From Clostridiales bacterium (lineage in GTDB: Bacteria > Bacillota > Clostridia > Lachnospirales > Lachnospiraceae), in assembly GCA_012518885.1 (NCBI GenBank), contig JAAYRG010000170.1, positions 1 to 42,752 on the forward strand: 42,752 nucleotides of DNA. Reading direction: 5' to 3'. The notes under the pieces were generated by a model. It was given only the letters and a program-made list of their open reading frames with translations, did not search any database and was not told the origin of the DNA. This document shows positions 12,558-30,188 of this stretch, in pieces. Position 1 is the first letter of the stretch, and every line of letters starts with the position of its first letter. The position numbers were made by a program, and so were the translations under genes.

Positions 12558-12576
12558 TTTTATATCTTGATAGCAC

Positions 12577-12606
12577 AAATGGAAGGATTAATCCTTCCAT
12601 TTTTTG
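12577..12606. terminator. Bidirectional rho-independent terminator overlapping the DUF6171 3' end
   Basis: AAATGGAAGGATTAATCCTTCCATTTTTT; DUF6171 stop at 12588-12590 lies at the stem centre. Confidence 0.85.
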
Positions 12607-12833
12607 TGGGGACAACGTCCATTCTTGGCTACGGCCCTTAGTTCAACATAACATCCACAAGCATTGCAAGTCGCTACATTAAGATATTTGCAGGATTTAC
12701 ACACCGCTATTCTTGCTTCGTAGCGTTCTTGTTCTACTTGATGGTCTGTCTTTAGTGCATTCATATACTTTTCAATCATTTTCTGGTCTTCTTCTGCACT
12801 ATCGTAAATCAAACACTTCTTACAAATGTTCAT
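12588..12833 (-). CDS. DUF6171-like small zinc-ribbon protein
   Basis: 81 aa; CKKC, CKSCKY, CNACGCYVELRAVAKNGRCPHKKW cysteine pattern; 6 nt downstream of the GH51 gene. Confidence 0.75.
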   Translation of the reverse strand: MNICKKCLIYDSAEEDQKMIEKYMNALKTDHQVEQERYEARIAVCKSCKYLNVATCNACGCYVELRAVAKNGRCPHKKWKD

Positions 12834-12839
12834 TATTAT

Positions 12840-14348
12840 CTACTCTTTCGCAATCCTAACTTCAACAACACTACAAGGTGGCATTGAAATTACAAGATTA
12901 CCATTCTTATATTCATAAGCTGTAAAGTCAACCTCTTTTACATTATCAGGGTCTTCGAATGTATTATGGGCCTTCATATCTTCATGGCTTACAATCTTAG
13001 CTTCCACAACCTTATAACCATCTTCAACCAATAATACTTCTACATCTTCACTGTCTGTTGCTGATAGGTTATTAAGTGTAATTGTAATAACATCATCCTT
13101 GTCTATTGATACTGATTCTGTAATCTTTGGTACCTTCCACTCTCCTAGACCTACTTCTTCTACACCAGATAAGTCACTACTTAAAAGGTCAGCACCTTGG
13201 TGGTGACGGTACATATGCATTACATGGTAGGTAGGTGTCTTAATCATATCTGGACCTTCAGTTAGAATTACAGCCTGAAGAACATTAATCATTTGTGCAA
13301 GGTTAGCCATCTTTACACGGTCAGAATGTTTATTGAAGATATTTAGAGTAATACCAGCTACAAGGGCATCCCTTACTGTGTTTTGTTGATATAAGAAACC
13401 TGGATTAGTACCTGGTTCAGCAGTATACCATGTTCCCCACTCATCAACTATCATTCCTACCTTTTTATCTGGATCGTACTTATCCATAATCTTACCGTGA
13501 CGAGTAATTAAGGTATCCATATAAAGAGCCTTGTTTAGAGTCTTGTACCACACTTCTTCATTAAAGTCAGTTGCACTTCCCTTTATCTCCCATCCTTCTG
13601 GATGTACATAGTAATGAAGAGACAAGCCATCCATAAAACCATGGGCAAATTCCGCATAATTAAAGGTTGTTCTTAATACTTCTTCAGTCCAGCGGTAGTC
13701 ATCAACATTAGCACCACAAGCAATCTTCTTTATAGGGTGGTCAGGGTTATAACTTCTTACATAGGTTTGGTAACGGCGGTATTCATTTCCATAAAAGTCT
13801 GGATTCATATTACCACCACAGCCCCAGTTTTCGTTACCTACAGCAAAGTAATCTACAACCCAAGGTTTTTCTCTACCATTTTTCTTTCTTAGGTCTGCCA
13901 TAGGAGAAACACCATCAAAGGTCATGTACTCAACCCATTCTGACATTTCTTGTACAGTACCGCTTCCAAGGTTACCGTTGACATAGGTCTTACAACCAAT
14001 TTGCTCACATAATTCCATAAACTCATGGGTTCCAAAACTGTTGTCTTCAACAACCCCACCCCAGTGGGTATTAATCATCTTTTTTCTAGATTCTTTAGGA
14101 CCAATTCCGTCCTTCCAGTGATATTCATCTGCAAAACATCCACCTGGCCAGCGAAGCACTGGAACTTTAAGTTCCTTTAAGGCTTCAACAACATCTGTTC
14201 TCATTCCATTTACATTAGGAATATCTGAATCTTCTCCAACATAGATTCCTTCATATATTCCTCGGCCAAGATGTTCAGCAAAATGACCGTATACTTCTGG
14301 TTCAATCCTATCTTTTCTTAACTTCTCATTAATATGTAATTTTGCCAT
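12840..14348 (-). CDS. GH51 alpha-L-arabinofuranosidase (intracellular)
   Basis: 502 aa; [51 protein letters not shown] (acid/base), VDEWGTWY (nucleophile). Confidence 0.97.
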
Positions 14349-14390
14349 ATTATCAACCTCATTTTTATATTCTTATTCTAGCCAATCTAA

Positions 14391-15350
14391 CTAGTTATCA
14401 AAGCCAAACACTGGTCTCATATCTTTATCCCACTTTAACTTCATAAGCATTGCGTGACGATTAGGATTATACAAAGGATTTCCTACTATTTCTTTTTCAG
14501 TTCTTGCATGATAGACCATAATATCATTGCCTTCTTCATCTACTGTAAAAGAGTTATGGCCTGGACCATATATCTTTAAATCTTCGTCTGACCTAAGTAC
14601 AGGATAGCGTTCTTTAGTCCAACTTTTTGGGTCTAGAAGGTCTGAGTCTTCCTTGGCACTAAGCATACCAATACAGTAGTTTATGCCTGTATCACTTGCA
14701 GAATAGGTTAAATAAATGTTACCATCCTTCTTAATAACTGCTGCCCCTTCATTTACCCAAAAACCATGTCTTTCCCAATCATAATCAGGTGTTGTAAGTA
14801 GAACTTGGGCAGTAGATAGCTTGCATCCGTTTTCCATTTTAGCTATATAAAGATTTGATATTTGCTTGCCTACCCCAACCTTTTCTGCCCATATATAATA
14901 ATATTCTCCCTTACTTTCTAAAACAGTAGCATCAAGAGAAAATGCCCTAAAGGAAAATTCATCATGGTCTGCACACTGCATTTTGCCTCTTTCTATCCAT
15001 GGGTCATTAATGGGGTCGTCTCCTTGGCATTCAAGGACGTATGGACGTATATTCCAAACATCTTCCTTTTCACCACCAGCAAAATAAATGTACCACTTGC
15101 CGAATATGTAATGTATTTCAGGTGCCCAAATATGCTCACTCATAGGGCCACTTTCATGTTTTCTCCAAATAATGTGTTCTGTAGCAGTAGGAAGTTCACT
15201 AAGAGTTTTAGCACGTCTTATGGCTATATAGTCATATGTTGGAATAGAGGCAGTAAAATAATACCATCCATTGCTATGACGATATACATATGGGTCTGCC
15301 CTTTGTAAAATCCAAGGCTCATTATATTTTACTGTCGTTTTGTTATTCAT
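14391..15350 (-). CDS. GH43 family glycosidase (probable alpha-L-arabinofuranosidase), intracellular
   Basis: 319 aa; RADPYVYRHSNGWYYFTAS, HIWAPEIHYIFGKWYIYFA, SLDATVLE, EGAAVIKKDGNIYLTYSAS, GPGHNSF; no signal peptide. Confidence 0.92.
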   Translation of the reverse strand: MNNKTTVKYNEPWILQRADPYVYRHSNGWYYFTASIPTYDYIAIRRAKTLSELPTATEHIIWRKHESGPMSEHIWAPEIHYIFGKWYIYFAGGEKEDVWNIRPYVLECQGDDPINDPWIERGKMQCADHDEFSFRAFSLDATVLESKGEYYYIWAEKVGVGKQISNLYIAKMENGCKLSTAQVLLTTPDYDWERHGFWVNEGAAVIKKDGNIYLTYSASDTGINYCIGMLSAKEDSDLLDPKSWTKERYPVLRSDEDLKIYGPGHNSFTVDEEGNDIMVYHARTEKEIVGNPLYNPNRHAMLMKLKWDKDMRPVFGFDN

Positions 15351-15510
15351 AGCTTCTCTTACTCCTATCTAATTGTAATTATATAAATCTTTTTTCTAGT
15401 AGATTTTTTAGCTTGATTTTAATATCACGCTTCTAAAATCATACTATTATTATCTTATGTTTACCTATTCCTAAATTACTTTACTTTTTTCTTATTTGAT
15501 GGTTATAAAA

Positions 15511-15540
15511 ATGGAGCCATCAAAACTGACGGCTCCATCA
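15511..15540 (-). terminator. Rho-independent terminator of the 15559..17148 lipoprotein gene
   Basis: Minus strand ATGGAGCCGTC-AGTTTT-GATGGCTCCAT followed by TTTTTAT. Confidence 0.88.
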
Positions 15541-15558
15541 TTTATTTATATGCCGTGT

Positions 15559-17148
15559 CTATTCTACTGAAAGCAATTCTATATAACTTGCTTCACCTGT
15601 TATAAATACATACATTGGATCTGAAGCTGTAGCAGCAACTGGTGCTGTTACATCATAAGTATATTCTGTACCATCAGCTGCAACTATCGTTGCATTTAGA
15701 CTTACATTACTATCTTTTCTTGATATCTTTGCAGTTACTTCTGCATCCATCATAATCTCTACGAACTTATCCCAGTCCCAAGTATATGATGCTGCATCAG
15801 CAGGTAGGTCACCATTATCTGTTGCAAATCCCCAGCCAAATGCATCTGCTCTTAGAACACCGTATTCAGCATATCCTTCATAATTCTCTGCACTAGCTAC
15901 CTTGTCTGCTTTAACAGGAGTATTAGCAAATGCTAACACATAGTTATCCCAGTTGTTAATTCCTGATGAGTAGTTATTAAACTTCATAGTAATGCTCTTA
16001 CCATCTTTAAGTTCATAACCATCTGTATTAGATGTCCAGAATCCATTATCTGTAGTTGGCACACCAACTGTTGCTATTGCATTCTCATCGATAGTTGTTA
16101 CTGTTTGACGCTCTGGTTCAACTTCAGGTTCTTCGTCTGCACTACCTGCTACTTCTTCTGCTTTACTTGGGTCACCAAGTTGATATAGAGTAGCTACTTG
16201 ACCATCAGTTAAGGAATAATCAAATATGTGTAAATCATCTACATAGCCCTTATAGATTGAATCCCAGTAGTTAATTCCAAAAAATGCTTCAAAGTTGTCT
16301 GATGCATCCATAATTCCTGTTGCAAGTCCGCCATATGCATTGTCGGAAGCGTCAAAAGCTAATACACCGTTTAGGTAAAGTTTTGCACCATTTCTATCAA
16401 GTCCATCTTCAGCAAAAGTATAAATATTTCCAGTTGCAACTAATGTTATATGAACCCATTCTCTCTTACCATGGATTGAATCATCAGCTGCATAAACCCA
16501 TGGCCACGCACCAGTTTCTGAGTTTCTATTCCATACAACAGGGAATATCTTAGCTGAGTTAGTTCCCCAGTCAGATTGGGTAATGTTAATCCATTTTACT
16601 GTGTTATCAACATCATTCATACCCATATTAGAACCTAATTGAAGGGTAGGTCCGTATGTACTAAGTCTATCTGCATTCATCCAGAATGAGATTGAATATG
16701 TTTCTGTTTCAAGAGGTTCAATATCAAATTGTAAACCAAAGTTACCATCTATGTAAGCACTGTTTCCAACTGGTCCTGGTTGGTACTGTACCTTTGCAGG
16801 TACTTCGTTACCATCTTTATCTACATAGGTATCTGATTTTGCAATTCCCATGTTGGCACCATCATTAGGACCTACATCTTCTGTGTTAATAACTGTATGA
16901 ACACCTTCTTCTGGTCCATCAAATGTAAAATGATACTTAGCTTCCTTGGTAAGCTCTTCTGGTTCTGCCATTGTATATTCTACTGGTTCTTCTTCTTTAG
17001 TTTCTTCTGTTTCCTGGGGGACTTCCTTTGTTTCATCTACTACTTGTGTGTCCCCATCGCTTTCCTTTGGGTCATCTTTGCCACATCCCATTATAAGGAC
17101 AGATGTCATAACTAGTGTTAATAGAACTGCTAATAATTTCTTTTTCAC
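15559..17148 (-). CDS. Surface lipoprotein with LamG/ConA-like domain and a second C-terminal beta domain
   Basis: 529 aa; lipobox SVLIMGCGKDD; LamG-like YSISFWMNADRLSTYGPTLQLG...WVHITLVATGNIYTFAEDGLDRNGAKLYLNGVLA...YVDDLHIFDYSLTDGQVATLYQLG. Confidence 0.8.
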   Translation of the reverse strand: MKKKLLAVLLTLVMTSVLIMGCGKDDPKESDGDTQVVDETKEVPQETEETKEEEPVEYTMAEPEELTKEAKYHFTFDGPEEGVHTVINTEDVGPNDGANMGIAKSDTYVDKDGNEVPAKVQYQPGPVGNSAYIDGNFGLQFDIEPLETETYSISFWMNADRLSTYGPTLQLGSNMGMNDVDNTVKWINITQSDWGTNSAKIFPVVWNRNSETGAWPWVYAADDSIHGKREWVHITLVATGNIYTFAEDGLDRNGAKLYLNGVLAFDASDNAYGGLATGIMDASDNFEAFFGINYWDSIYKGYVDDLHIFDYSLTDGQVATLYQLGDPSKAEEVAGSADEEPEVEPERQTVTTIDENAIATVGVPTTDNGFWTSNTDGYELKDGKSITMKFNNYSSGINNWDNYVLAFANTPVKADKVASAENYEGYAEYGVLRADAFGWGFATDNGDLPADAASYTWDWDKFVEIMMDAEVTAKISRKDSNVSLNATIVAADGTEYTYDVTAPVAATASDPMYVFITGEASYIELLSVE

Positions 17149-17175
17149 ATTAATACCTCCCTGTTGTTAGTTTAT

Positions 17176-18747
17176 TTATTGATTATCTTCAACCATTTGC
17201 TCATACATAGCTACTTCTTCTTCAGATAAAATATCATATCCGTTAGGTCCAAAGTAATCTAACATAGCTGTTGCATGGTAGAAGTTAGCCTTCTCTGTTG
17301 CTTCTGTTGCATAGTCTGCTGCCTTTGCTTGACCACTATCTACTAAGTCATGGATACCAATCTTATTGAAGTATTCATCACAGAAGTTCCAGTAGCCTGC
17401 AATACTTGTCCAACCAAACGGAATTGGTTGCATACAACTTGCAAAGTATTCCTTCCAGTAACCCTTATGTTCTTCATCCATACCCTCAGTATACATATCA
17501 ATATAGCCATCCCAAACTTCTTCATTTAATGTTATAGGTGCTGGCATAACATCATACTTAAGAGCTAAACCTGATTGGTTAGTAATTGATTCGTCATTAT
17601 ATACTTCAATTCTTGTCTTCCAACCATCAACCCCAAAACTCATAAACTTAAGCAGTTCATATGCTTCACGTGGATATTCACAAGATGTAGTAATTCCACC
17701 AAAGTCAATAGTTGCTATACTATTATGACCTTCTGCCTTAGCATCCTCTTCCTGAACTGGTGGGATAACATAAGGTACAATATCTAGGTTATATTGTTCA
17801 AATGCTTCAGTAGCCCAAGTTCCTTGGTAGGTCCAGAAAGCTTCTGTAAACAGGGCTACGTGGCCTGAAGAACCTGCCCAACCTTCCCAGTCTCCATACC
17901 AGTCTTCCATCTCTTGAGTCTCTGGTACTGGGGCAATATAGCCACCTTGTTTTAGGTCTGCGAATTCTTGTTCACCAACAGCCCAAACTCCTAAGTCAAA
18001 TCCTTTACCGTCAAAGCCAAATTCCCCAATGATGTCTTGTCTAGCTGCAATACCGTAATAAGAGTCAAGCCTGTTGTAGTAACCCATACCGTAGTAAGCC
18101 ATTCCATCTCTTGAATCAAGAACAGTTGCGTCCTTAATAAGTTGGATCATCTCATTCCAAGTCCAGTCTCTACTTGGTGCAGGTATATTAAGTTCTTCTA
18201 AAACATTAAGATCAATATACATTATTCCAGGGAAGAACTTTACTGGTACGCCAAATCTTCCACTTGTTTGATAGGTTCCAAGACCAGCTGAATTAACTGT
18301 CTTAGCTAAGTTTTGTGTTTCTGGGTCAGAATCCCATAAGTTTGAAATATCTGATAATAAGAAGTTAGATAAGGCAAAGTCCGCATCTGAGTACATAATT
18401 ACATCTGGTGTTTCGTTGTTAGAAACTAATGTAAGTAATGTATCATTATACGTAGCTACATTCTCATAAACAGCATTAACTGTAATATTAGGATATAACT
18501 CCATAAATCTATCTGCCAAATACTTAACAGTCTCATCTTGATCAAAGTGGAAATATGTAAGGGTGATTTCTTCATCTGTCAAATCAGTCGCCTTCTTGTA
18601 TGTAATATCTCCAATTTGGACATCTTCTGTCTCTCCAGATACTGTATCACTTGAAGTACCCTTTGATTTTTCTTTTGAGCCCCCACATGCTGTTAAAGTA
18701 AGCACTAGCGTAAGTGCTAGAATTATCAGTGCCAACCTTTTTCTCAT
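17176..18747 (-). CDS. Extracellular solute-binding lipoprotein, sugar ABC transporter (SBP2)
   Basis: 523 aa; lipobox LTLTACGGSKEK; ITLTYFHFDQDETVKYLADRFMELYPNITVNAVYENVATYNDTLLTLVSNNETPDVI. Confidence 0.92.
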   Translation of the reverse strand: MRKRLALIILALTLVLTLTACGGSKEKSKGTSSDTVSGETEDVQIGDITYKKATDLTDEEITLTYFHFDQDETVKYLADRFMELYPNITVNAVYENVATYNDTLLTLVSNNETPDVIMYSDADFALSNFLLSDISNLWDSDPETQNLAKTVNSAGLGTYQTSGRFGVPVKFFPGIMYIDLNVLEELNIPAPSRDWTWNEMIQLIKDATVLDSRDGMAYYGMGYYNRLDSYYGIAARQDIIGEFGFDGKGFDLGVWAVGEQEFADLKQGGYIAPVPETQEMEDWYGDWEGWAGSSGHVALFTEAFWTYQGTWATEAFEQYNLDIVPYVIPPVQEEDAKAEGHNSIATIDFGGITTSCEYPREAYELLKFMSFGVDGWKTRIEVYNDESITNQSGLALKYDVMPAPITLNEEVWDGYIDMYTEGMDEEHKGYWKEYFASCMQPIPFGWTSIAGYWNFCDEYFNKIGIHDLVDSGQAKAADYATEATEKANFYHATAMLDYFGPNGYDILSEEEVAMYEQMVEDNQ

Positions 18748-18808
18748 AATTTACCTCCTAAATATATATTAGTTTAACTCTGGGATTATTTGACACCCCC
18801 ATGTGTAT

Positions 18809-18870
18809 ATTATAGCATGTATTTTGATAAAATCTACATTATTTTATGAATTATTTTAAATTATTTTAAA
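18809..18870 (-). promoter_or_regulatory. SBP2 promoter candidate with AT-rich direct repeats
   Basis: Extended -10 TGCTATAAT (TATAAT at 18814-18809) preceded upstream by TTTAAAATAATTTAAAATAATTCATAAAATAAT. Confidence 0.6.
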
Positions 18871-18970
18871 CAATATTGGAGCTTTTAAAAATATTATCCT
18901 AAAAATCCGACATCTTTATTGAATTTTTATATTTTTTTGATAGCTTTTATATAAAAAACTAATTTAATTT

Positions 18971-19993
18971 TTATTCTCCAGTAATACCACTTCGGTCAAC
19001 ACTTTCAACAAAGTATTTTTGGAACACCAAATATAAGACTAGGAGAGGCAATATACTAAGCACTGTTCCAGACATATTAATAGACTCATTTAAACTTGTA
19101 ATTGTAGTATTGGCTGTAACTGCATACTCAGAATAGTTAGAAGAAAAATTCTTTAACTGAACTACTAAGGTAGTCCACCCTGATTCTTGCAAAACTCCAG
19201 TTACATACATCTGGGTTAGGTATGAGTTATTCCAGTACCATACAAAAGAAAATAGTCCGACTGTTATAAAGGCTGGTACTGAAGACGGTATTGATACCCT
19301 AAGAAATGATTGGAAGTATCCTACACCATCAACTTGCGCCGCTTCTATTAATGCATTTGGTATCTGTTGAAAGAAGTAATAAAATATAAGTATGTAAATT
19401 TGGGCATTTATTCCCATTCCCAAAATTGCTGGTAATATAAAACCCCATATAGTCCCTAAAATTCCAATATTAGAGTAAAGAACATAAGTTGGAATCATAG
19501 TAATTTGGTCAGGTAGTATAAATGAGAAAATTATAATAGCAAGTATCACCTTCTTAAAAGGGAATTCAAATCTTGCTAGACCATAGCCTATTAGGGCACA
19601 GGAGAACATATTACATAGGGTAGGAAGCCCCGCTATAATTACACTTTGAAGAAAAGACTTCCAAAAATCCATACTCTTAGCTGCCTGCATATAATTCGAT
19701 AGGTTTAGGGAACTAGGAATCCAATTTATGGATGAATCTAGTAGGTCATCTAAGGTCATAAAACTTGTACTTACCATATGCAAGATTGGGTAGATATAGA
19801 TAAACCCAATAGATATAAGGAGTAAATATATAAGGGTCATTTTTAAAATGCCTTCTTTATCCTTGCTTCCTAGCATAAGCTTTCGAAACTTGTCTTTATT
19901 CATATTTCTCAAAGAACCCTTATTCGAAATCTTCATAGCTAGTGAACTTGCCTTTCTTTTCTGCTTTCTTGAACTTTCTAGCATTTCTAGCAT
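18971..19993 (-). CDS. Carbohydrate ABC transporter permease (MalG-type); real start probably near 19903 (MNKDKFRKLML)
   Basis: EAAQVDGVGYFQSFLRVSIPSSVPAF (EAA loop); six TM-like segments. The first 30 residues of the called ORF overlap the upstream gene. Confidence 0.92.
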   Translation of the reverse strand: MLEMLESSRKQKRKASSLAMKISNKGSLRNMNKDKFRKLMLGSKDKEGILKMTLIYLLLISIGFIYIYPILHMVSTSFMTLDDLLDSSINWIPSSLNLSNYMQAAKSMDFWKSFLQSVIIAGLPTLCNMFSCALIGYGLARFEFPFKKVILAIIIFSFILPDQITMIPTYVLYSNIGILGTIWGFILPAILGMGINAQIYILIFYYFFQQIPNALIEAAQVDGVGYFQSFLRVSIPSSVPAFITVGLFSFVWYWNNSYLTQMYVTGVLQESGWTTLVVQLKNFSSNYSEYAVTANTTITSLNESINMSGTVLSILPLLVLYLVFQKYFVESVDRSGITGE

Positions 19994-20993
19994 TTCTCCT
20001 TTCTATCTTTCTTGCCGTTCTTCTATCTTTCTTCATCTGCTTTCTAACCTTCTTAGCCTGACGCTCGTAAACATCCTTACGGCCCATGATTAGTCCAGCA
20101 AATAATAAAACTATAAGTACAACTACTAAAGAATATACCCATGCCATAGCCGATGCATATCCATAGCCCTTTTCCTTAGTACCTGAGAACATAGCCCTTT
20201 GAATTAGTACTATAATGGCATTAGATTCGTTTCCAGATATATAAACCACTGTATACACACAGTTAAGTAAGATTAGGGACTTAATATTAGGTAGGGTTAT
20301 TTTCCAGAAGCACTCCCACTGGGAACCTCCGTCTATCTTAGCCGCTTCATACATAGACTTGTCTATCTTTTGCAGACCTGAAAGGAAAATAAGTATTTGA
20401 ACACCAGAATACCAAAGTATCATAATCATATTTGTAAATATATCTGAGATAGGTTCAGCCAAATAGTAAGGCAAAAAGTTTGATATGGCCCCTGAAATTG
20501 CTTGGGCATTAAGGGCAGAAACAGATACTGCACCTTCAGCTGAGAGCATTCCCATAACTGGACCACTCACAATAATTACCGGTAGGAAAAATATTAGTCT
20601 AAAGGGACCCTTAAACTTTATCCTTTGGTTTAACATCATAGCTATCATTAATGCAAAAACATTAATTACTGGCACTGATATTAGAGTAGAAACAAGGTAG
20701 TCTACAATATGGGGTATAAACTCTGGATCAGATAATAGGATTTGAGTAAAGTTACCAGTCCCTACAAAGTTAAAGTTCTTCCCAATTGGTGTAATCCTAA
20801 TATTGTTAAGGGCGTACCAAAAGGATGTCACAAGAGGGTATATCAAAAACAATATAGCTCCGATAATCCAAGGAGATACAAATATTAGGCCTGTAATAGC
20901 TTTACGCCTTGATAATTGCCCGCGTTTAACTTTATTTTTTTCCTTTTTGACTTTTGCAGCCCTTTGGACTGTTATATCTTTCACTTGTATCAC
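19920..20993 (-). CDS. Sugar ABC transporter permease (MalF-type) with long basic C-terminal tail
   Basis: EAAKIDGGSQWECFWKITLPNIKSLI EAA loop; C-terminal RQAKKVRKQMKKDRRTARKIERRNARNARKFKKAEKKGKF. Confidence 0.92.
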   Translation of the reverse strand: MIQVKDITVQRAAKVKKEKNKVKRGQLSRRKAITGLIFVSPWIIGAILFLIYPLVTSFWYALNNIRITPIGKNFNFVGTGNFTQILLSDPEFIPHIVDYLVSTLISVPVINVFALMIAMMLNQRIKFKGPFRLIFFLPVIIVSGPVMGMLSAEGAVSVSALNAQAISGAISNFLPYYLAEPISDIFTNMIMILWYSGVQILIFLSGLQKIDKSMYEAAKIDGGSQWECFWKITLPNIKSLILLNCVYTVVYISGNESNAIIVLIQRAMFSGTKEKGYGYASAMAWVYSLVVVLIVLLFAGLIMGRKDVYERQAKKVRKQMKKDRRTARKIERRNARNARKFKKAEKKGKFTSYEDFE

Positions 20994-23305
20994 CTCGCAT
21001 CACCAATTTTGTATGACATTGCCGGTATTTTCATTCCATCCACACTAGCATCTGAATCTGCATAGTTTACATATATAGCAATTCCATTATCATAGGTAAC
21101 TCTTGTAACACCATCATCGCCTTTTTCATGGTCTACTATATAGGCGCCATCTAGCAAACTTGCTAGCTTGCGAAACTCTCTATCGTATTCAACAATTGTA
21201 TCCTTATAAGCCGAATACTCGCTAGAGTACAGGTCCGCAGAGTTGGTATAAACTAAGGCTGATGAGTTCTCATAAGTTATGTAGAAGGATGGATAAACTC
21301 CTGCCTCTACCATCCTTAAGAAGTATTCTTTTTGGTTTGCTTCAAAGTTTACGTATTCAGAATACATTGGAATAATACCCTTTAATACCATTGATAAAAA
21401 AGGAACTTCCTCATCTACAGTCATATAACTTGATGAACTAAGAGGCATATCTAGGAATCCATCAGTATAATTCCACAAGTATGAATAGGGTTGTTCTAAA
21501 AGCAAGTCAGTTTTTTCATACATACTAGATATCAAGCCTGTATAATCATCTCCGCTATCATATCTCGTATAGTAGTTACTTTGATAACTATAGGAAAATA
21601 GGTTGTTTGATATCCCTGCTATCGCTAAGTTATCCACACCCTCATCAGTGTAAGAACTTACAAAGTTTGATAATAGCTTATTAGTTCTTGCAGGTGTTAA
21701 AAACTCAAACTCCTTATACACTTCCTTGTAAACCTTTTCTATATAGGTACGTTTATTAACCCTTTTAACTACATTAAAAGTAGAGTTTGTTTCTGCAGGG
21801 TTTATTCTAAGGGCATCATTATAAAGGTAAAGATTATAGTCTTTTTCCTCGGCTTCTTTTATTAGGTCGGTTAGGTCTTTGGTTCCACCTATGGACTTGT
21901 CAGCCTTATACTTTTTAATTGGAAGGTCATATAAACCACCCTTTTGCCAGCCCTTGTAAACTGATATAAGACTTTCAATCCCCTCGTCTTCTAACTCAGA
22001 ATAGATTTCCTTAATATTATCTGTTGTAGTCATGGTTACGGCTTTTTTAAAGATTAACCACTCTTCCCTATCTGCACCTAAGAAGTCTACCCTAGTGTTG
22101 TATGATATATCTTTTAACTCAACTAAGTTGTTTTCTAGTAAATAATTTCTATATTCTACTGCAAGTCCTGCATAGTCTGCACTATCTCCATCAACTAAGA
22201 TATAACGAACCTGCATGTCCATATCTGTTCTATTTCTTTCAACACTAGTTACAGTTCCAGTGTTTGAGTTGTTTAAGGGTTGCACAAAAATATCACGAAT
22301 CATAAACTTTGCAAATATCCTGTTATAGTTTACTGTCGCCCCATTAGGGTGGGCTTCTATACTTGCCCTCTTGTCTCCCTCTTCTACAATACCAAGATAA
22401 CCAATTTCCTTGTTGCTATGAATCATCCCAAAAACAGGAGCTATTACATCATTTGGCTTCCTTACTGTATCATACATATCCCACAACAATCTTGTGATTC
22501 CTGAATCAACAAAGCCAATATCATTGCCGTAAATAGGTTGGGAAAAACCCGAGTTAAATCTCCCTTCCTTATCATCAAGATATATTAGGGCACCGTTACC
22601 ATCTGGAATAAGCATGTAACCATCTTCCTCGTCCATATATGTATAACCCATGAAAGGATATAGGCTTATTGTAGAGATATAGGTTCCTTCAGTGTTTTCT
22701 ACAATAGATTCACTTGGTACCCCTACCACTAGCTCATTACCTTCTAAGGCAACATTAACTGTTAAGCCAAAACCATAAGATGGGAAGTATACTTGGGCCG
22801 AAAATCCATTGTCTGTATAGGAAAGTTCAATTGTATTCTCTGTTGTAAGTAAGTCTACCTGGTATGTATTTGTGGTACCAATAATTGCATTAATAACAAG
22901 TCCTGACTTCATGTATCCATTCCAAGTCTTATTACTAGTCCCATCGTCCTTTTCATCGCTTAGGGTGGATTCTATTATTTCACCAGTTTCCTTGTTTTCT
23001 AATATTATCGATAACCTAGGACTATAAAGGTACATGCGGTAACTTTCACTTTCAGCAACTAGGTCATAGTCTTTAAGTGTTACCCACTGTGACTTATCAA
23101 CCTTACCAACTGCTTCATCGTCTTGGCTAGCCCCTTCCTCTTCTCTTTTAGTCTCTTCACTAGTTTCTTCACCGGTTGATGTTACCACGTCTTCTTTAGA
23201 ATCTTCGCTAGTAATACCTGCTGCCAAAATAACTTCTGACATAAAAGAAATAGTCAATACCACAAGAAGAGCAAGGCATATGATTTTTCTGACTTTATTC
23301 CACAA
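20990..23305 (-). CDS. DUF5696-like extracytoplasmic protein
   Basis: 771 aa; signal peptide KIICLALLVVLTISFMSEVILAAG; N-terminal beta-rich region, then barrel-like region VDFLGADREEWLIFKKAVTMTTTDNIKEIYSELEDEGIESLISVYKGWQKGGLYDLPIKKYKADKSIGGTKDLTDLIKEAEEKDYNLYLYNDALRINP. Confidence 0.7.
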   Translation of the reverse strand: MWNKVRKIICLALLVVLTISFMSEVILAAGITSEDSKEDVVTSTGEETSEETKREEEGASQDDEAVGKVDKSQWVTLKDYDLVAESESYRMYLYSPRLSIILENKETGEIIESTLSDEKDDGTSNKTWNGYMKSGLVINAIIGTTNTYQVDLLTTENTIELSYTDNGFSAQVYFPSYGFGLTVNVALEGNELVVGVPSESIVENTEGTYISTISLYPFMGYTYMDEEDGYMLIPDGNGALIYLDDKEGRFNSGFSQPIYGNDIGFVDSGITRLLWDMYDTVRKPNDVIAPVFGMIHSNKEIGYLGIVEEGDKRASIEAHPNGATVNYNRIFAKFMIRDIFVQPLNNSNTGTVTSVERNRTDMDMQVRYILVDGDSADYAGLAVEYRNYLLENNLVELKDISYNTRVDFLGADREEWLIFKKAVTMTTTDNIKEIYSELEDEGIESLISVYKGWQKGGLYDLPIKKYKADKSIGGTKDLTDLIKEAEEKDYNLYLYNDALRINPAETNSTFNVVKRVNKRTYIEKVYKEVYKEFEFLTPARTNKLLSNFVSSYTDEGVDNLAIAGISNNLFSYSYQSNYYTRYDSGDDYTGLISSMYEKTDLLLEQPYSYLWNYTDGFLDMPLSSSSYMTVDEEVPFLSMVLKGIIPMYSEYVNFEANQKEYFLRMVEAGVYPSFYITYENSSALVYTNSADLYSSEYSAYKDTIVEYDREFRKLASLLDGAYIVDHEKGDDGVTRVTYDNGIAIYVNYADSDASVDGMKIPAMSYKIGDAR

Positions 23306-25346
23306 TTCGGTACACCACCTCTCCTATAACTTCAGTAATAAACCCAAATACTTGAGCCCATAAAACATAAAGAACAAATAGTATTAAGGCCATAATTAAT
23401 ATTGTGAAAATGGTTAAACAAATAACCTTAAAAGTTTCTTTTGGAGTATAATTATTTACTTCTTTTATCCCAATAACTCCTATAACAATAACCCAGCCAA
23501 CCATTAAGAAGGTAATCATTGTTATTAGAAATTGTTCATTTAAGGTAAGTACATGGGTAAGAACAAACCTAATTGGGACAAATAAGATATAAGGCATTAA
23601 ACTATAAGCAAGGAAGGTATAGATTTTCTTAACTGTTCCTTCTCCTTCGTTAATAGTACAAACTAGGTAATGACATACTGTAATAGCAAATATTACAATT
23701 GCTATCATTCCTAAATCAGATAAGACTTCATACCTGCCCTCTGGCACAGTCTTTTGCAAAAATCCACGTAAATACTTATCAATAATAAACTCTATTGCAA
23801 AAATAACCACTATTATAGTAGGTGCTATATAAGATGCACGGTTTTGCCTTGCAATACCATAAGAACCATCTATTGGGTGATACATATAGTGTTTGGCATA
23901 TTTTAGGTTGGAAATAATCTCATTCTCACCTAGCTTAGCCTTTAACCTTCTATATCCAGAAAAGATATTTTTCTTATCATCTATAAGTTTTAAGGCCTTC
24001 TTAACTAACCAAATCCCAATAACTATACCCACTAGTTTTACTATATTCTCTTGCAACCAAAGGTTACGGATTTCCCAGAAGGCATCTGAGTAACCCTCTT
24101 CGTCATTAGCAAGCTTGGCATAACTTAGGGCTAGCTCATAGTTTTCTTCTTGAAAGTAAGCCCTTCCTATAGCTTGGTTTGCATAGTTAAACATACTATT
24201 CATTTTAAGTATCTCGGTTAAAGGCTCCTTACTCTCTGTATACCTACCATTAGAGTAAAGGTATAGGGCCTGGTGCAAAAGGTTTGTAAATTCAGTTGGT
24301 TCATAAACTTGAATCTGGGCCTTGTCTGTATCAAGAACATATATCCTATCTTCAAGGTCAACTTGTATGGCAGAAACTAAGGTAGAAAGACCAACCCTTT
24401 GGGTCCCATCATCAAGGCCACCAAATACATAAAGAAGGTCCCCTTCCCCGTTATATTCATATATGTAACCTTGCTGAGATGCCACATATATATTGTCATG
24501 GTTACCTGGTGCTACTGCTGCAGGTATCCTATCATACTCTGTTTTACCAAGGAGGTTAGTCCCTGCAATATTAAGTTTCTTTAGGGTGTTCTCCTTATCA
24601 CCACGAGTAACTGTATATATTAAGCCCTTGTCATCAATGGCTAAATTATCAGGTGTAGAAGGTACATTACTTACCATCTTTCCACGTTGTTCATCAGTTA
24701 GTATGGTTCGGTAGATAATTGTCATAAGATCTGCCGATGCAAAGTTAGTTCCAAAATACCCAAGAAAGCTACCCCCTTCTAAGGGAGATATTTCTACTAT
24801 ACCGTTAGTGTTAGACTCAGCTACAATAAACATAATTCCCGCATCATTAACTACAACCTTAAGCGGAAGGAAATCAAGTCTTTCACCATATAGTGGGTTG
24901 TTTGGTTTAGTATAGGTATTAAGTAATTCCCCTTCTGGGTCAAACTCATAAACAGCTCCTGCATCTCTATCGGCTACATATACATGTTTATCATCAGTTA
25001 CAAATACCCCTTTTGGAGTTATAAGGTCACCTTCTCCAATAGTCTTTATTAATTCCCCCTCAAGGTTACCAACCACTATTCTTGCATTTTCAGTATCAGC
25101 AATGTATATTTCCCCATCCTTAGTAACATGCATATCACTAGGTCCAGAAAAGCTCTCATCACCAAACTTAGTTATTGTCTTATGTGGTAGGTAGGACGTT
25201 TGAGTTTCATTTACATTGCCGTATCCATCTATGGTAAATGTTTTATAGGGCGTCTTGGCAGTTGCAACACTAGGGACTAGCGAACTTAATAAGACCGCTA
25301 AGAGGAAGATGGCAACTATTTTTATAGTCCATTTTCTTTGTTTCAT
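23295..25346 (-). CDS. NHL-repeat beta-propeller protein with C-terminal YIP1-like multi-TM domain
   Basis: 683 aa; signal peptide; NHL-type repeats (GPSDMHVTKDGEIYIADTENARIVV, TPKGVFVTDDKHVYVADRDAGAVYEF, IQVDLEDRIYVLDTDKAQIQVY); TPR-like EPLTEILKMNSMFNYANQAIGRAYFQEENYELAL; several C-terminal TM segments. Confidence 0.75.
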   Translation of the reverse strand: MKQRKWTIKIVAIFLLAVLLSSLVPSVATAKTPYKTFTIDGYGNVNETQTSYLPHKTITKFGDESFSGPSDMHVTKDGEIYIADTENARIVVGNLEGELIKTIGEGDLITPKGVFVTDDKHVYVADRDAGAVYEFDPEGELLNTYTKPNNPLYGERLDFLPLKVVVNDAGIMFIVAESNTNGIVEISPLEGGSFLGYFGTNFASADLMTIIYRTILTDEQRGKMVSNVPSTPDNLAIDDKGLIYTVTRGDKENTLKKLNIAGTNLLGKTEYDRIPAAVAPGNHDNIYVASQQGYIYEYNGEGDLLYVFGGLDDGTQRVGLSTLVSAIQVDLEDRIYVLDTDKAQIQVYEPTEFTNLLHQALYLYSNGRYTESKEPLTEILKMNSMFNYANQAIGRAYFQEENYELALSYAKLANDEEGYSDAFWEIRNLWLQENIVKLVGIVIGIWLVKKALKLIDDKKNIFSGYRRLKAKLGENEIISNLKYAKHYMYHPIDGSYGIARQNRASYIAPTIIVVIFAIEFIIDKYLRGFLQKTVPEGRYEVLSDLGMIAIVIFAITVCHYLVCTINEGEGTVKKIYTFLAYSLMPYILFVPIRFVLTHVLTLNEQFLITMITFLMVGWVIVIGVIGIKEVNNYTPKETFKVICLTIFTILIMALILFVLYVLWAQVFGFITEVIGEVVYRIVE

Positions 25347-25372
25347 TTTTGCTTCCTTTCTCTTGTCACTTT

Positions 25373-26242
25373 CTATTTAATACCTGAGTGTGCCATTGTA
25401 TTCATTACATTCTTTTGCAGAAGAATAAACAATACAAGGTTTGGTATAAACATAATCAGCGTCGCTGCTGCTGCTATTCCTTGACCTGCAACTGTATTAT
25501 TTGCATTTGTTAAGGAGTTCATATAGAAGGTAAGACTCTTCATACTATCGTCGTTAATATAAAAGTTTGACGTTTCCATATTGGTCCAAACTTGTTGGAA
25601 AACAAGGATTGCCGCAGTTGCAATTGCAGGCTTAATCATAGGGATAATTAACTTGCGATAGATATGAAAATCTGATGCCCCATCTATATAAGCCGCCTCA
25701 ATTAATACCTGTGGCACTTGGTCAACAAATTGCTTAACAAGAAAGAGTGCTACTGGTACCGACAAAAGAGGTAATATGTGGGCCAGGTATGAATCCACTA
25801 AGCCTAGTTTGGCAATTATTAAGTATCTAGGAATTGAAACAGCTGTAGCAACAAACATAATAGCTATTTGGTTTATTTGCATTAGCATATTTCTTCCCCT
25901 ATATTTAAGCTTGGACAAGGAAAAGGCTGCTAGGGTTGTAAACACTAGGGATAAGCCTATTGTCACCAGGGTAATAACAAAACTGTTGAAAATATATCTA
26001 CTTAATGGAATACCAGAATTCCTACTAACCTTTATTAGGTTTGTGAAGTTATCTAGGGTTGGTCTTCTCACAAAAAAGGTTGGTGGGAAGGCAAACAACT
26101 CGTCCATAGGTTTAAATGCATGATTGATTATGTATACAATTGGTAAGGCCATAAATATTACTAGGGGTAGTATAAGCAATAATATCTTAACCTGATCTTT
26201 CCCCATCTTCTTGGGGTCTATCTTACTTCCTCTATATGCCAC
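25373..26242 (-). CDS. Carbohydrate ABC transporter permease (MalG-type)
   Basis: 289 aa; EAAYIDGASDFHIYRKLIIPMIKPAIAT EAA loop. Confidence 0.94.
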   Translation of the reverse strand: MAYRGSKIDPKKMGKDQVKILLLILPLVIFMALPIVYIINHAFKPMDELFAFPPTFFVRRPTLDNFTNLIKVSRNSGIPLSRYIFNSFVITLVTIGLSLVFTTLAAFSLSKLKYRGRNMLMQINQIAIMFVATAVSIPRYLIIAKLGLVDSYLAHILPLLSVPVALFLVKQFVDQVPQVLIEAAYIDGASDFHIYRKLIIPMIKPAIATAAILVFQQVWTNMETSNFYINDDSMKSLTFYMNSLTNANNTVAGQGIAAAATLIMFIPNLVLFILLQKNVMNTMAHSGIK

Positions 26243-26269
26243 TTACTATTCCTCCTTTATTAGCATCAT

Positions 26270-27211
26270 TTATTCATCTTTTGAAGCAAACAACCTGTCA
26301 GCACCCTTTGAAAATAGTTGAACTAAGAGTAGAAGTACTACAGATACTGCTGCTGCATATCCCATTTCGTATCTTAAGAAACCATAGTCTTCAATATGGT
26401 TTACTATTAACTGGGCTGCATATCCAGGTGACGGATTTCCTGTAAGTAAGGTTGAAACTGCTCCGTTTTGAAAGGCATTAACAACTGACATTACTGCTGC
26501 AAAGTACATCTGTGGCTTCATACTTGGAATTGTTATGTATATAACTTCTTGAAACCTATTCTTTACACCATCAATAGCTGCTGCTTCATAAAGTTCTTGG
26601 TTAGTATTTAGGATACCAGCTATCATAGACAAGAAGCCAACCCCCATACTAGACCACAAGCCAATTATTATTACTATTGGAAGTAAGTACTCTTCACTTA
26701 TTAGCCAGATAATTGGCTCATTAATAATACCAAGACTCATTAACCAGCTATTTAATATTCCTGTTTGGTCTCCCGAGAAAATCACCCTCCATATTACTGT
26801 CATGGCTACACCTGAGGTCATACTAGGTGAATATATTATTAAGGAGCATATGGTTCTTGGTATCTTAGGAAGATTACTTAGGGCATATGCAAGTAAGAAG
26901 GCTAGTATAAACCCACCTATTCCTACAACAACTGAGTATACAACTGTATTAGGTAGTACAAACTGCATGAATACTTCATCTCTAGTAAGTAGGGTAATGT
27001 AATTTAGAAAATTAACCCATGATGGCCATTCTATAGCATTAAAGTTAGTAAAAGACAAGATAACTGCTAGAATAACTGGTATTAAAATAAATACCCCAAA
27101 CACTAATCCATAAGGCAATACAAAGAGGTAACCGTTTTTGTTGTTACGTTCTAGCCTTCCTACTTTACTCTTTCTTTTCAAAATCTTCTCACCTCTACTC
27201 TTCATTGTCAT
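26270..27211 (-). CDS. Sugar ABC transporter permease (MalF-type)
   Basis: 313 aa; EAAAIDGVKNRFQEVIYITIPSMKPQMYF EAA loop. Confidence 0.94.
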   Translation of the reverse strand: MTMKSRGEKILKRKSKVGRLERNNKNGYLFVLPYGLVFGVFILIPVILAVILSFTNFNAIEWPSWVNFLNYITLLTRDEVFMQFVLPNTVVYSVVVGIGGFILAFLLAYALSNLPKIPRTICSLIIYSPSMTSGVAMTVIWRVIFSGDQTGILNSWLMSLGIINEPIIWLISEEYLLPIVIIIGLWSSMGVGFLSMIAGILNTNQELYEAAAIDGVKNRFQEVIYITIPSMKPQMYFAAVMSVVNAFQNGAVSTLLTGNPSPGYAAQLIVNHIEDYGFLRYEMGYAAAVSVVLLLLVQLFSKGADRLFASKDE

Positions 27212-30188
27212 TACGTCCTAATATTTCTTTGACCTTGTCAATAGTAGGAATCTCGTATATTTCTAAAACATTTCCTTGGCTGTCAATATATCCAAACTCC
27301 TCTAGCTTTCTCTTAACTTCACGGTTTACCGTCTTTACAGCCTTGTCTATTCTTGTTTGGGCAATATCCCCATTAACAGTAATATCATTAAAGGCATTAC
27401 TCATTTCACGTTCAAGAAGATATGTACCTGGAATTCTAGCAACGTCTATAACATTCTTTGCTGCTTCCATAATGATATTCTTATCCCTTGTATCCCATGG
27501 TAATTGACTAAAGGCTTCAAGGTTAGCAGAGGCCCACATATATTCGTCACCATAGGTAATTTGAATAATCTGACCAAATTCTGATTGGACCTCTGTTGAG
27601 GACCACCACTTCATAAATTCCCAGGCCTTATCCCTTCTATTTTTATCTTCAATTTTAAACATTACCGTACTTTCTGCATTCCCACAGGTACTATTCATTA
27701 TAGTTCCATCCTCTTGTACAGTTCCTGGTGGAGGTGCAATACTCCATGTGTTTGCAAGTTCTGGTGCTGCATTCTTAAGCAGGTTATAAACTCCGTAATC
27801 AGCAACCCCTATCGGTAAGTCTCCATTTCTAAAGTGTTGATAGAAGTTATCTACGTTAACTGGCATACCATAAATGGTAAAGAGGTCTGTTAAGGCAGTA
27901 AATCCATCAACTGAGTTTTCACTACCAATTGCTGTTCCATCATGGGCATATTGGTAATACAAGGACCCACCATGCTGAATTAGTAGAGGGGTTGTACCAT
28001 GGAAGTTTCTCATGGTTATCATACCTGCTGTTGGATAATAATAGTTTAATCCCCTCATTTGCAATTCAGGAAGCATATTAATAACATCATCCATGGTTTC
28101 TGGTACTTCAAGACCTAGCTTTTCCATTATATCCTGCCTATAATATAGAACCCAAAAGTTCATAGTCTCTGGCAGGGCATATACCTTCTCGTTAATTGTA
28201 GAAGTTAGGAAGAAACCAGGTTCATAAGGGGATGCAACTTCCTTAAAGTCTTCAAACTGAGTTAAGTCTTCTAGAGCATTTCTAATTGCAAGCTCATAGG
28301 GAATTGTATAATTTATTCCAGTTGCTATATCAGGGGCATCTCCTGATGAATTGGCAAGGACTAGTTTATATTGGTCTGGCATAATACTTATATCTACTTC
28401 AATTCCTGTATTAGCAGTAAAAGATTCATCTATCATCTTTTGCATTATCTGCACATACTGGCTAGGCCTATTAACCCAAACCTGTAAATGTTCCGGATTG
28501 GTGTTACTTGTTGAATAGGCTTGGTCTGTAAATGATGTTACAAACCTCTTAAGGTTCATTACCAGTGATTTTATAAATCCTGGACTAGCTGGAAGCTTAG
28601 CATCTTCCTGATATATGTAGACCCTATCGATTGCAAGGTCATTAGCAATAAGTTTATCAATAGTATTAGCTAGATATTGATTTACTGAGTTTGCACTAGA
28701 TGATAATTCACTTATTCTATATGCAATCTCATCTGTATTATCAGCCAAACTAATTAGCTGCTTTGCAGCAATAAGCATTGATGACATTACTGCAACATTC
28801 TTATCACTGCTACTATAGATAACCATGCTTTGTTCAAGTTCATATAGACTATCTGCATAGGTTCTTAGTTTTTCTTCAAGGTCTGGTATGTATCTAGTAA
28901 TTCTCAGGTCCCTATACTTGTCTGCATTTGTTCCTGCAACCTTGGTAATCTCAAGTTCAATATCCTTAACTTCTGACATTATAAAATCTATCTCTTCTAA
29001 AACAGTTCGTATTGGGTCCATGCTTATTGTATAAGAAAGAGTGTGCTTACCTTCATCTAAGTAGACACTTAGTTTGTTTCCTTCCTTATCTTTTAGGCTA
29101 GCTGTAGTATACTGGGACCCATAAGCCATTGGATAGGCTTCAAATTCCTTATTAGGTATTTGACCATCAACCCTTACATCTACAAAGACAGGAAAGTCAG
29201 TCTTATCAGACTGCCTATAATTAGTAGCTATGTAATAGTAACCTGCCTTGTTAATTTCAAACTCATAAGTTATGGTTTGGCCTGCTGTATCATAAGAGGC
29301 TGAATCTATTGTATTAAGGACTGTATCACCAACTTCATAAGGTTCTATCCTTGTATCATATTCTGCAATTGCATGAATTGAACTATCATTAGTATAGGCA
29401 TAATCTTCACCTTGAATAGTAATTAGACCATCTCCCTCAGCCAACTTACTACCCTCATATTCCTTAGCTTCATATGGAGCAGATAATTTCAAACTACCGA
29501 GTAGGAAGTTTCCTTCACTTATACTTAGGCTAATAGTGTGTATTCCCTCTTCAAGTTCTAGGGCTAAAGGACGGCTATGTCTGTAGGATGAATCCATTAA
29601 GTACTTTTCTTCCCACTGCATTAGCTTGTTAGGCACTGTTACTATCTCATTACCATATCTGTCATATACCTTTTCTGAACTTGGTTTCCAAGTTGTCTCT
29701 AGAATTATGTTCCTAGCTTCATAAAAGGGAACCTCCCCATCTACTTCCATCATAAACTCTATTGGTAAAATAGACTCATCATATGAGTAGTAGGTAAAGC
29801 CAAGAAAATACTTGCCACTTTCTGGCACCTTGATATTAAGGTCAATTACATCTCCTATTCCAAGGTCAGCCACCTTATCAGATCCTTCAAATCCTTGTGT
29901 AGAGTCTGTAAGTAGGGCCTTACTTTCACCGCTTACAACTTCACCAACATAAAAATTAAGCTCTTCTCCCTCATAAGAAGGCAACTTATACTGACTACTT
30001 ACTTGTGTGTAGTTTCTTGTTAGACGTTCACTGATAAAGTCATTGTTTATAGCCTTTTTACTACTTGTCTCTTTATTCGCTTCTTTTGCTAAAGATACAC
30101 CTTTAGATTGAAGACTTAGACTTAGGGTAATGGCCATAACACATAATAATGCCATAGAGATAATCTTTTTAATTCTTCCTTGCCTCAT
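27195..30188 (-). CDS. Large solute-binding protein with N-terminal carbohydrate-binding-like domains (SBP1)
   Basis: 997 aa; Sec-type signal without lipobox Cys; two N-terminal beta-rich modules (YFLGFTYYSYDESILPIEFMMEVDGEVPF...; YYYIATNYRQSDKTDFPVFVDVRVDGQIP...); helical linker; C-terminal SBP type 1 region QVWVNRPSQYVQIMQKMIDESFTANTGIEVDISIMP...FMKWWSSTEVQSEFGQ. Confidence 0.85.
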   Translation of the reverse strand: MRQGRIKKIISMALLCVMAITLSLSLQSKGVSLAKEANKETSSKKAINNDFISERLTRNYTQVSSQYKLPSYEGEELNFYVGEVVSGESKALLTDSTQGFEGSDKVADLGIGDVIDLNIKVPESGKYFLGFTYYSYDESILPIEFMMEVDGEVPFYEARNIILETTWKPSSEKVYDRYGNEIVTVPNKLMQWEEKYLMDSSYRHSRPLALELEEGIHTISLSISEGNFLLGSLKLSAPYEAKEYEGSKLAEGDGLITIQGEDYAYTNDSSIHAIAEYDTRIEPYEVGDTVLNTIDSASYDTAGQTITYEFEINKAGYYYIATNYRQSDKTDFPVFVDVRVDGQIPNKEFEAYPMAYGSQYTTASLKDKEGNKLSVYLDEGKHTLSYTISMDPIRTVLEEIDFIMSEVKDIELEITKVAGTNADKYRDLRITRYIPDLEEKLRTYADSLYELEQSMVIYSSSDKNVAVMSSMLIAAKQLISLADNTDEIAYRISELSSSANSVNQYLANTIDKLIANDLAIDRVYIYQEDAKLPASPGFIKSLVMNLKRFVTSFTDQAYSTSNTNPEHLQVWVNRPSQYVQIMQKMIDESFTANTGIEVDISIMPDQYKLVLANSSGDAPDIATGINYTIPYELAIRNALEDLTQFEDFKEVASPYEPGFFLTSTINEKVYALPETMNFWVLYYRQDIMEKLGLEVPETMDDVINMLPELQMRGLNYYYPTAGMITMRNFHGTTPLLIQHGGSLYYQYAHDGTAIGSENSVDGFTALTDLFTIYGMPVNVDNFYQHFRNGDLPIGVADYGVYNLLKNAAPELANTWSIAPPPGTVQEDGTIMNSTCGNAESTVMFKIEDKNRRDKAWEFMKWWSSTEVQSEFGQIIQITYGDEYMWASANLEAFSQLPWDTRDKNIIMEAAKNVIDVARIPGTYLLEREMSNAFNDITVNGDIAQTRIDKAVKTVNREVKRKLEEFGYIDSQGNVLEIYEIPTIDKVKEILGRNDNEE

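Follow-up and report, generated by a model that had tools for sequence, protein, structure and literature searches.

A conserved set of minus-strand genes in the window (the whole 42,752-nucleotide stretch of DNA analyzed) probably encodes a carbohydrate uptake system of several components, with two different CUT1-type permease pairs, an NHL-YIP1 protein and a DUF5696 protein acting as one functional unit, a reading to which we assign a probability of about 0.55. At that same level, somewhat better than even, the set would constitute one coupled importer built from a constant module and exchangeable substrate heads, for which we infer physical assembly of the parts.

Organization and recurrence of the block

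The initial annotation proposed nine genes, and domain search recovered all nine ORFs on the minus strand at the coordinates and with the domains it had given. The order begins with SBP1 (27195..30188, 997 aa; SBP_bac_1, 3.6e-20) and continues with the MalF-type permease Fa (26270..27211; BPD_transp_1), which overlaps SBP1, the MalG-type permease Ga (25373..26242; BPD_transp_1 with an EAA motif), the NHL-YIP1 protein (23295..25346, 683 aa; NHL and Yip1 domains) and the DUF5696 protein (20990..23305, 771 aa; PF18952, E = 7e-179), which is predicted to be exported. A second MalF-type permease, Fb (19920..20993; BPD_transp_1), overlaps the DUF5696 gene by 4 nt and is followed by the MalG-type permease Gb (18971..19993; BPD_transp_1), by SBP2 (17176..18747; SBP_bac_8/SBP_bac_1, lipobox LTAC), a conventional lipoprotein solute-binding protein, and by a LamG (Laminin_G_3) lipoprotein (15559..17148), a local accessory. 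The three overlaps reported earlier (27211/27195, 23305/23295 and 20993/20990) are correct, and a fourth joins Gb to Fb (19993/19920), where an AAAGGAG Shine-Dalgarno sequence supports the Gb start at ATG 19993. The description of the layout as mirrored holds for the outer binding proteins but not for the permease pairs, which run in direct order, F-G ... F-G. Likewise, the nine-gene block narrows to a conserved core of seven genes that starts with SBP1 and ends with Gb; SBP2 is variable, and the LamG lipoprotein, for which searches of the other loci returned no relative, falls outside the conserved unit. Because a 223-nt gap containing a TATAAT-like box (18799..18814, minus strand) precedes SBP2, SBP2 and LamG may have their own promoter; this possible internal promoter was recognized by sequence reading, from its resemblance to the consensus only. 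A putative intrinsic terminator lies after LamG (15511..15538, minus strand), with an 8-bp stem, ATGGAGCC/GGCTCCAT, followed by a T-run; its loop of 12 nt is outside the range of the terminator scan, and it was likewise found by sequence reading.

Dozens of other loci share the SBP1-F-G-NHL/YIP1-DUF5696-F-G order, far more than chance would give. Whereas a single-protein scan of the genome contigs yielded one relative only, a wider genome search provided the broader sampling, with 57 DUF5696 loci from 38 genomes among 398 genomes of the phylum. All 55 loci that could be tested have the NHL/YIP1 gene immediately upstream of DUF5696, and 53 of the 55 have Fb-Gb immediately downstream, one exception being due to a contig end and the other to a masked ORF; in 40 of these 53 loci the DUF5696 gene overlaps that of Fb, with a median of −4 nt. 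SBP1 together with its own MalF/MalG pair adjoins NHL-YIP1/DUF5696 in 37 loci, and where SBP1-Fa-Ga is found away from DUF5696 it often forms a separate operon in the same genome. Counted by genome, DUF5696 is present in 38, NHL-YIP1 in 38, SBP1 in 40 and all three in 37, the latter spanning 15 families and 20 genera; in the five genomes with just one of the three, the gene sits on contigs of ≤8.5 kb. Full-length SBP1 relatives occur in 37 of the 38 DUF5696 genomes. Among 72,556 plasmids, DUF5696 and full-length SBP1 were found in the same two records, and these two independently annotated plasmids carry the same gene order. The evolutionary distances of the core proteins also correlate (Spearman 0.68–0.93). 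The idea that the genes form one functional unit thus gained support from the 37 genomes common to DUF5696 and NHL-YIP1, from their invariable adjacency and from the co-occurrence of SBP1 even when it is encoded elsewhere in the genome; the neighborhood search placed the central pair beside ABC permeases, whereas an occurrence mostly apart from them had been named in advance as speaking against the proposal. Co-inheritance of the block genes does not, however, prove that their products form one complex. DUF5696 appeared in no paper of the open-access literature searched, and searches on Yip1 and NHL within the same scope returned nothing on such a system.

Permease pairs, binding proteins and substrate context

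In phylogenetic analysis, the Fa permeases of the blocks group in a single clade with an SH-aLRT of 100, one unrelated permease excepted; the Fb permeases likewise form a single clade (support 100), and Ga and Gb each have a clade of their own (support 100). Because other permeases of the same genome fall between the Fa and Fb clades and between the Ga and Gb clades, an origin by duplication of one importer was rejected; on this sequence evidence, the two pairs are ancient, separate clades. Almost every copy of each of the four permease types carries the EAA coupling motif, and the idea of a degenerate, non-transporting pair was rejected on that ground. The block resembles CUT1 importers of the MalFG/UgpAE kind, which share an MsmX-type ATPase, in its BPD_transp_1 permeases with EAA motifs, its extracellular solute-binding proteins SBP1 and SBP2, and an ATPase gene located outside the block: one orphan MsmX-type (OB_MalK-type) ATPase of 369 aa is encoded on another contig, and a UgpC gene adjoins one homologous operon in Paenibacillus. 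To our knowledge, described CUT1 systems have one permease pair, whereas the block has two unrelated pairs co-inherited with NHL-YIP1, DUF5696 and a giant CBM35-SBP. We infer that the two pairs form one system rather than two.

SBP1 consists of a signal peptide, two CBM35-like domains (residues ~60–410), a helical or coiled-coil region (~410–540) and an SBP_bac_1 domain (~560–960), and its N-terminal profile matches CBM35-type domains and coiled coils. The closest solved relative of its binding domain is Lin1841 (PDB 5ysb; E = 3.9e-30), which we take to be a β-1,2-glucooligosaccharide binder and to which SBP1 adds ~550 residues comprising the two CBM35-like domains and the helical stalk. Between loci, the SBP1 binding domain retains a mean identity of 47%, compared with 24% for SBP2, and Fa/Ga are more conserved than Fb/Gb, a split also seen between loci of one genome. 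In these comparisons, SBP1-Fa-Ga is the conserved part, while SBP2, DUF5696 and Fb-Gb vary, as do the neighboring enzymes. In most loci SBP1 is accompanied by a conventional SBP, and some blocks contain several binding-protein genes. The missing lipobox of SBP1 and DUF5696, considered as proof of their retention by a complex, was dropped as an unspecific sign because many SBP2 proteins of other clades also lack one. A complication for the coupled-importer reading is that in monoderms DUF5696 or SBP1, if not lipidated, could stay at the cell only by way of an uncleaved signal anchor or a partner. The NHL-YIP1 protein combines a six-bladed NHL propeller, TPR-like helices and a Yip1 membrane domain; its structure model (pLDDT 85.5) retrieved NHL propellers in Foldseek, and hydropathy and charges predict that the propeller faces outside.

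The block is neighbored by genes for AraA, AraD, an FGGY kinase, GH127, GH51 and GH43, and SBP2 matches an arabino-oligosaccharide-binding protein (PDB 6rjy; E = 1.4e-9). The arabinan setting suggested initially is thus supported by the gene neighbors and one SBP match. In its combination of an ABC importer, glycoside hydrolases, an AraC-type regulator and catabolic genes, the region resembles Gram-positive polysaccharide utilization loci, from which it differs by the double import part and the two uncharacterized proteins. The SBP2 match within an arabinan/arabinose gene set also resembles the AbnE-type importer, but AbnE systems work with a single permease pair and are not known to include the additional proteins of the block. 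At other loci, the neighboring enzymes are those for xylan, mannan, alginate and other glycans, and the locus in Butyrivibrio adjoins a two-component system.

Fold and catalytic positions of DUF5696

The DUF5696 protein matches PF18952 over its whole length (596.6 bits against a gathering score of 25.6). Its structure model (pLDDT 85.7, pTM 0.86) retrieved ZgGH129 (5opq, E = 2.7e-30) and NagBb (5wzn, E = 3.5e-25) in Foldseek, with a probability of 1.00 and TM scores of ≤0.73 by target, and shows the N-terminal sandwich, TIM barrel and C-terminal sheet of GH129. Homology to 5opq is also detectable at the sequence level (profile E = 2.7e-11). The model thus assigns DUF5696 a GH129/GH101 fold over its whole length, and the Trp of the β-1 GW motif is common to DUF5696 and NagBb. 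The differences from GH129/GH101 are the gene's position between ABC permease genes, the lack of any match of PF11308 (Glyco_hydro_129) to the protein at E ≤ 0.01 or in the genome at E ≤ 1e-20, and the variability of the catalytic positions. These positions were mapped by topology and spacing; a PDB search with the barrel alone gave an alignment that still stopped short of the nucleophile, and no GH129 sequences for a profile alignment were obtained in the phylum. The nucleophile position at the end of β-4 (D486 in ZgGH129) is Gly564 in the window and Asp in 22 of 58 relatives, whereas the acid/base position at the end of β-5 is Glu604 in the window, with Glu in 15 and Asp in 13 of the 58; both are acidic in just 14. 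As the two positions vary across the family, the extracytoplasmic processing proposed in the initial annotation is doubtful; this variability and the unmatched PF11308 also led to the rejection of an ordinary secreted GH129 enzyme as the default. Counting against the non-catalytic reading are D631, conserved in 50 of 58 relatives, and the Asp subset, and DUF5696 may be catalytic through another pair of residues; R581, N607 and N653 are, like D631, conserved near the predicted pocket.

A proposed coupled importer and its alternatives

In the model that we propose, extracellular enzymes, here GH51/GH43, would cleave arabinan, and the lipoprotein SBP2 together with DUF5696 would hand the oligosaccharide to Fb-Gb. 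DUF5696 would serve as a glycan-binding receptor or gate with a glycosidase fold rather than as an enzyme, and NHL-YIP1, seated in the membrane with its propeller facing outward and with a TPR-like arm, would tie it to the permeases. SBP1, with its two CBM35-like domains and helical stalk, and Fa-Ga would together form the constant partner, keeping hold of the glycan or finishing its uptake. A common MsmX-type ATPase would drive both pairs, and GH127, GH43, GH51, AraA/AraD and the FGGY kinase would complete sugar breakdown inside. The substrate would be set by SBP2, DUF5696 and Fb-Gb, with SBP1-Fa-Ga remaining constant. A more far-reaching version, in which SBP1-Fa-Ga is an ATP-driven engine or docking partner acting through NHL-YIP1 on a retired glycosidase, DUF5696, atop Fb-Gb, such that two coupled pumps of a single machine draw in long or branched glycans, is speculative, and we give it roughly one chance in four.

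The strongest competitor, which we consider a minority view, is that the operon encodes two independent ABC importers, SBP1-Fa-Ga and SBP2-Fb-Gb, for different oligosaccharides, with NHL-YIP1 and DUF5696 serving the second only. The old, separate permease clades, the conventional SBP alongside SBP1 in most loci and the stand-alone SBP1-Fa-Ga operons (loci L088, L091, L093 and L095) agree with it, and SBP1 with Fa-Ga may just serve to take up another sugar, one that is more common. However, genomes with just one module are practically absent, the modules occur together in most loci and on both plasmids, and the SBP1 domain is conserved while SBP2 and the neighboring enzymes change, which would be odd for an importer with a substrate of its own.

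Two further readings are less probable. DUF5696 might be a working enzyme outside the cell, a glycosidase or transglycosidase from a new family related to GH129, and trim oligosaccharides right at the permease in a cut-and-import unit, as its whole-length fold, the shared Trp and the conserved pocket residues would permit; the Gly at the nucleophile position in the window, the acid/base residue being Glu or Asp in 28 of 58 relatives, the few relatives with both positions acidic and the unmatched PF11308 make this improbable. Least probable of all, SBP1-Fa-Ga and NHL-YIP1 would have a mainly sensing or mechanical role, reporting glycan binding or moving DUF5696, with no transport route of their own. 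Such a role would suit the slowest evolution of SBP1 and Fa-Ga whatever the local enzymes, the additional CBM35-like domains and stalk, and the two-component system in Butyrivibrio, but the EAA motif is kept in all four permease types in nearly all loci, as in importers, and domain search revealed no signaling domain in the core proteins.

In Gram-positive bacteria of gut and soil, which have no outer-membrane SusCD system, glycan feeding is usually credited to simple one-pair ABC importers. The seven-gene set, present in at least 15 bacterial families, looks like an undescribed uptake machine for complex carbohydrates, which current annotation breaks up into seven entries with no stated relation, two of them lacking an assigned function. 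If the coupled-importer reading is true, this strictly co-inherited double importer, with a subunit of glycosidase fold and a scaffold of propeller and Yip1 domain, would serve as a general platform for uptake, accompanied by enzymes for arabinan, xylan, mannan, alginate and other glycans; DUF5696 and the bacterial NHL-YIP1 proteins would gain a testable role, and the diet of a strain would probably be best predicted from SBP2. Should the single two-pair machine also hold, it would represent a new class of ABC import assembly.

Layout and genomic setting of the block

The initial annotation had described a nine-gene double ABC-importer block built around NHL-YIP1 and DUF5696, and ORF and domain calls bore out the places and descriptions of all nine genes. 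On the minus strand, the block runs from the binding protein SBP1 (27195–30188) through the MalF and MalG permease genes Fa (26270–27211) and Ga (25373–26242), NHL-YIP1 (23295–25346), DUF5696 (20990–23305) and a second MalF/MalG pair, Fb (19920–20993) and Gb (18971–19993), to SBP2 (17176–18747) and a LamG lipoprotein (15559–17148). Each junction from SBP1 to Gb is an overlap or shorter than 30 nt; a 223-nt gap carrying a TATAAT box lies upstream of SBP2, and a hairpin with a T-run lies 3' of LamG.

SBP1 combines a pair of CBM35-like domains with a helical or coiled-coil region and a binding domain closest to Lin1841 (5ysb), and SBP2 is a lipoprotein matching the arabino-oligosaccharide-binding protein 6rjy. 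In the NHL-YIP1 model (pLDDT 85.5), an NHL propeller with Foldseek matches to TRIM/Brat NHL domains is accompanied by TPR-like helices and by a Yip1 domain with several membrane spans; from the protein's hydropathy, charge and signal peptide, the propeller is predicted to lie outside. The genomic setting is that of arabinan/arabinose use, with flanks encoding AraA, AraD, an FGGY kinase, GH127, UxaC, two regulators, two GH51-type arabinofuranosidases, two GH43 and one GH36-like protein. The latter, a GH36/melibiase-like protein of 703 aa, is encoded close to the arabinan genes (33304–35415), and two neighbouring MFS transporter genes following the FGGY kinase/AraD/AraA genes (1272–3863) are a possible second route of sugar entry.

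Conservation of the unit

Of 398 genomes drawn from across one phylum, 38 carry PF18952 (DUF5696), with one copy in the window's own genome; the only other sample was a plasmid collection. Gene orders were read in up to 20 kb around each of the 56 other PF18952 hits and one further named locus, L087 (Lachnoclostridium). An NHL/YIP1 gene stands immediately upstream of DUF5696 in all 55 testable loci, and Fb-Gb follows in 53 of 55, the two others being a contig end (L051) and a masked overlapping ORF with an Fb match present (L083). DUF5696 overlaps Fb in 40 of the 53 loci (median −4 nt). NHL and YIP1 are two adjoining genes in 16 loci and a single fused gene in the remainder, a pattern that points to joint action of the two parts. 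Of the 57 loci, 37 also contain SBP1-Fa-Ga within the stretch read, mostly upstream and in a few downstream of Gb; in genomes with DUF5696 loci that lack it, the trio often forms a separate operon elsewhere (L088, L091, L093, L094, L095). At one locus (L065, G152, 4584–5912) Ga is split by an IS110-family transposase gene, and this copy of the block is probably broken.

DUF5696, SBP1 and NHL-YIP1 (the last counted by strong matches) are common to 37 genomes from 15 families and 20 genera, counts that are fairer than Fisher p-values, which overstate independence because the genomes are related. The main rival explanation, two separate importers sharing one operon, has its weak point here, as genomes with only one module are nearly absent: single components occur in G356, G103, G154, G079 and G243, on contigs of 2.1, 3.8, 4.3, 3.1 and 8.5 kb, and in four of these five the component is cut at a contig end. 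The plasmid collection agrees independently, since among 72,556 records both DUF5696 and a full-length SBP1 relative were confined to Butyrivibrio fibrisolvens pNP243 and a Paenibacillus cellulosilyticus megaplasmid, both of which keep the gene order of the block in the NCBI annotation. Upstream of the block on pNP243 (L126, 1–3508), a divergent histidine kinase and response regulator are candidates for its regulation. An N-terminal NHL fragment near a contig end (L102, G243:C103, 7907–8497), lacking YIP1 and DUF5696, is either a degenerate copy or an assembly cut.

Across 30 complete loci, the distance matrices of the seven core proteins correlate with Spearman coefficients of 0.68 to 0.93, and none of 500 permutations reached such values. 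In trees with permeases of the window's own genome, Fb and Gb form one clade each (support 100), as do Ga and the blocks' Fa; recent duplication of one permease pair is ruled out by this separation of clades on long stems with other permeases in between. The EAA coupling motif is kept in almost all copies of all four types. The block contains no ATPase gene, and the window's genome encodes one OB_MalK-type ATPase, an orphan with no adjoining permease gene, as expected for a shared MsmX; in Bacillus, multitask MsmX ATPases are established (PMC7658222, PMC5730181). At the P. cellulosilyticus locus, a UgpC gene lies immediately upstream of SBP1.

A GH129-like fold in DUF5696

The model of the window's DUF5696 protein (pLDDT 85.7, pTM 0.86) matched, over its full length, ZgGH129 (5opq, E = 2.7e-30), NagBb GH129 (5wzn, 3.5e-25) and, after these, GH101, and the family profile matched 5opq by sequence in three collinear stretches (2.7e-11). 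In GH101 and GH129, the catalytic Asp (D486 in ZgGH129) and the clan's acid/base sit at the ends of strands β4 and β5, regions corresponding to residues 559–564 and 600–606 of the model. On this mapping, which is putative because it is based on topology and spacing, position 564 is Asp in 22 of 58 family members and Gly in the window, position 604 is Glu or Asp in 28, and acids occupy both in only 14. D486 is named as the catalytic Asp in PDB entry 8rzk. The Trp of the β1 GW motif is kept, the Asp preceding it in NagBb is not, and W453, R581, N607 (Tyr in the window), D631 and N653 are conserved near the predicted pocket. DUF5696 is interpreted here as a glycan-binding relative of GH129 that most likely does not act as an enzyme by the GH129 mechanism. 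No paper in the open-access literature searched mentions DUF5696.

Constant and variable modules

Between loci, mean identity is 47% for the SBP1 binding domain and 55/53% for Fa/Ga. SBP2 (24%), Fb (41%) and Gb (42%) diverge further, and in 274 of 276 pairs conservation is higher for the SBP1 domain than for SBP2. Species divergence is ruled out as the cause because the split persists between loci of one genome (e.g. 57% versus 30% in G357), where DUF5696, at 35–40%, is nearly as variable as SBP2. The enzymes near the blocks differ widely (GH2, 3, 5, 10, 26, 28, 30, 31, 35, 42, 43 and 95, alginate lyase, chondroitinase B and others), and a conventional SBP is close by in at least 45 of 57 loci. 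Two loci (L036, G102, 10525–17400; L041, G137, 13115–19901) have a run of five to six genes for conventional binding proteins behind a single block, as though many interchangeable heads shared one importer. At the P. cellulosilyticus locus (L127, NZ_CP054609.1, 3489–25112), luciferase-like monooxygenases take the place of glycosidases: the UgpC ATPase gene is followed by the block and then by genes for four LLM flavin-dependent oxidoreductases and a further two SBPs. None of the 19 genes shown codes for a glycosidase, and the cargo there may be something other than plant polysaccharide.

The sequences show that the block is a unit, how its proteins are built, which fold DUF5696 has and how conservation is distributed over the parts. 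Mechanistically, SBP2 and DUF5696 would hand an oligosaccharide, in the window an arabino-oligosaccharide, to Fb-Gb, NHL-YIP1 would hold the parts together, SBP1-Fa-Ga would serve as common partner, and MsmX would power both permease pairs. The simplest reading is that a constant module, SBP1-Fa-Ga, is coupled to a substrate-specific module of SBP2, DUF5696 and Fb-Gb.
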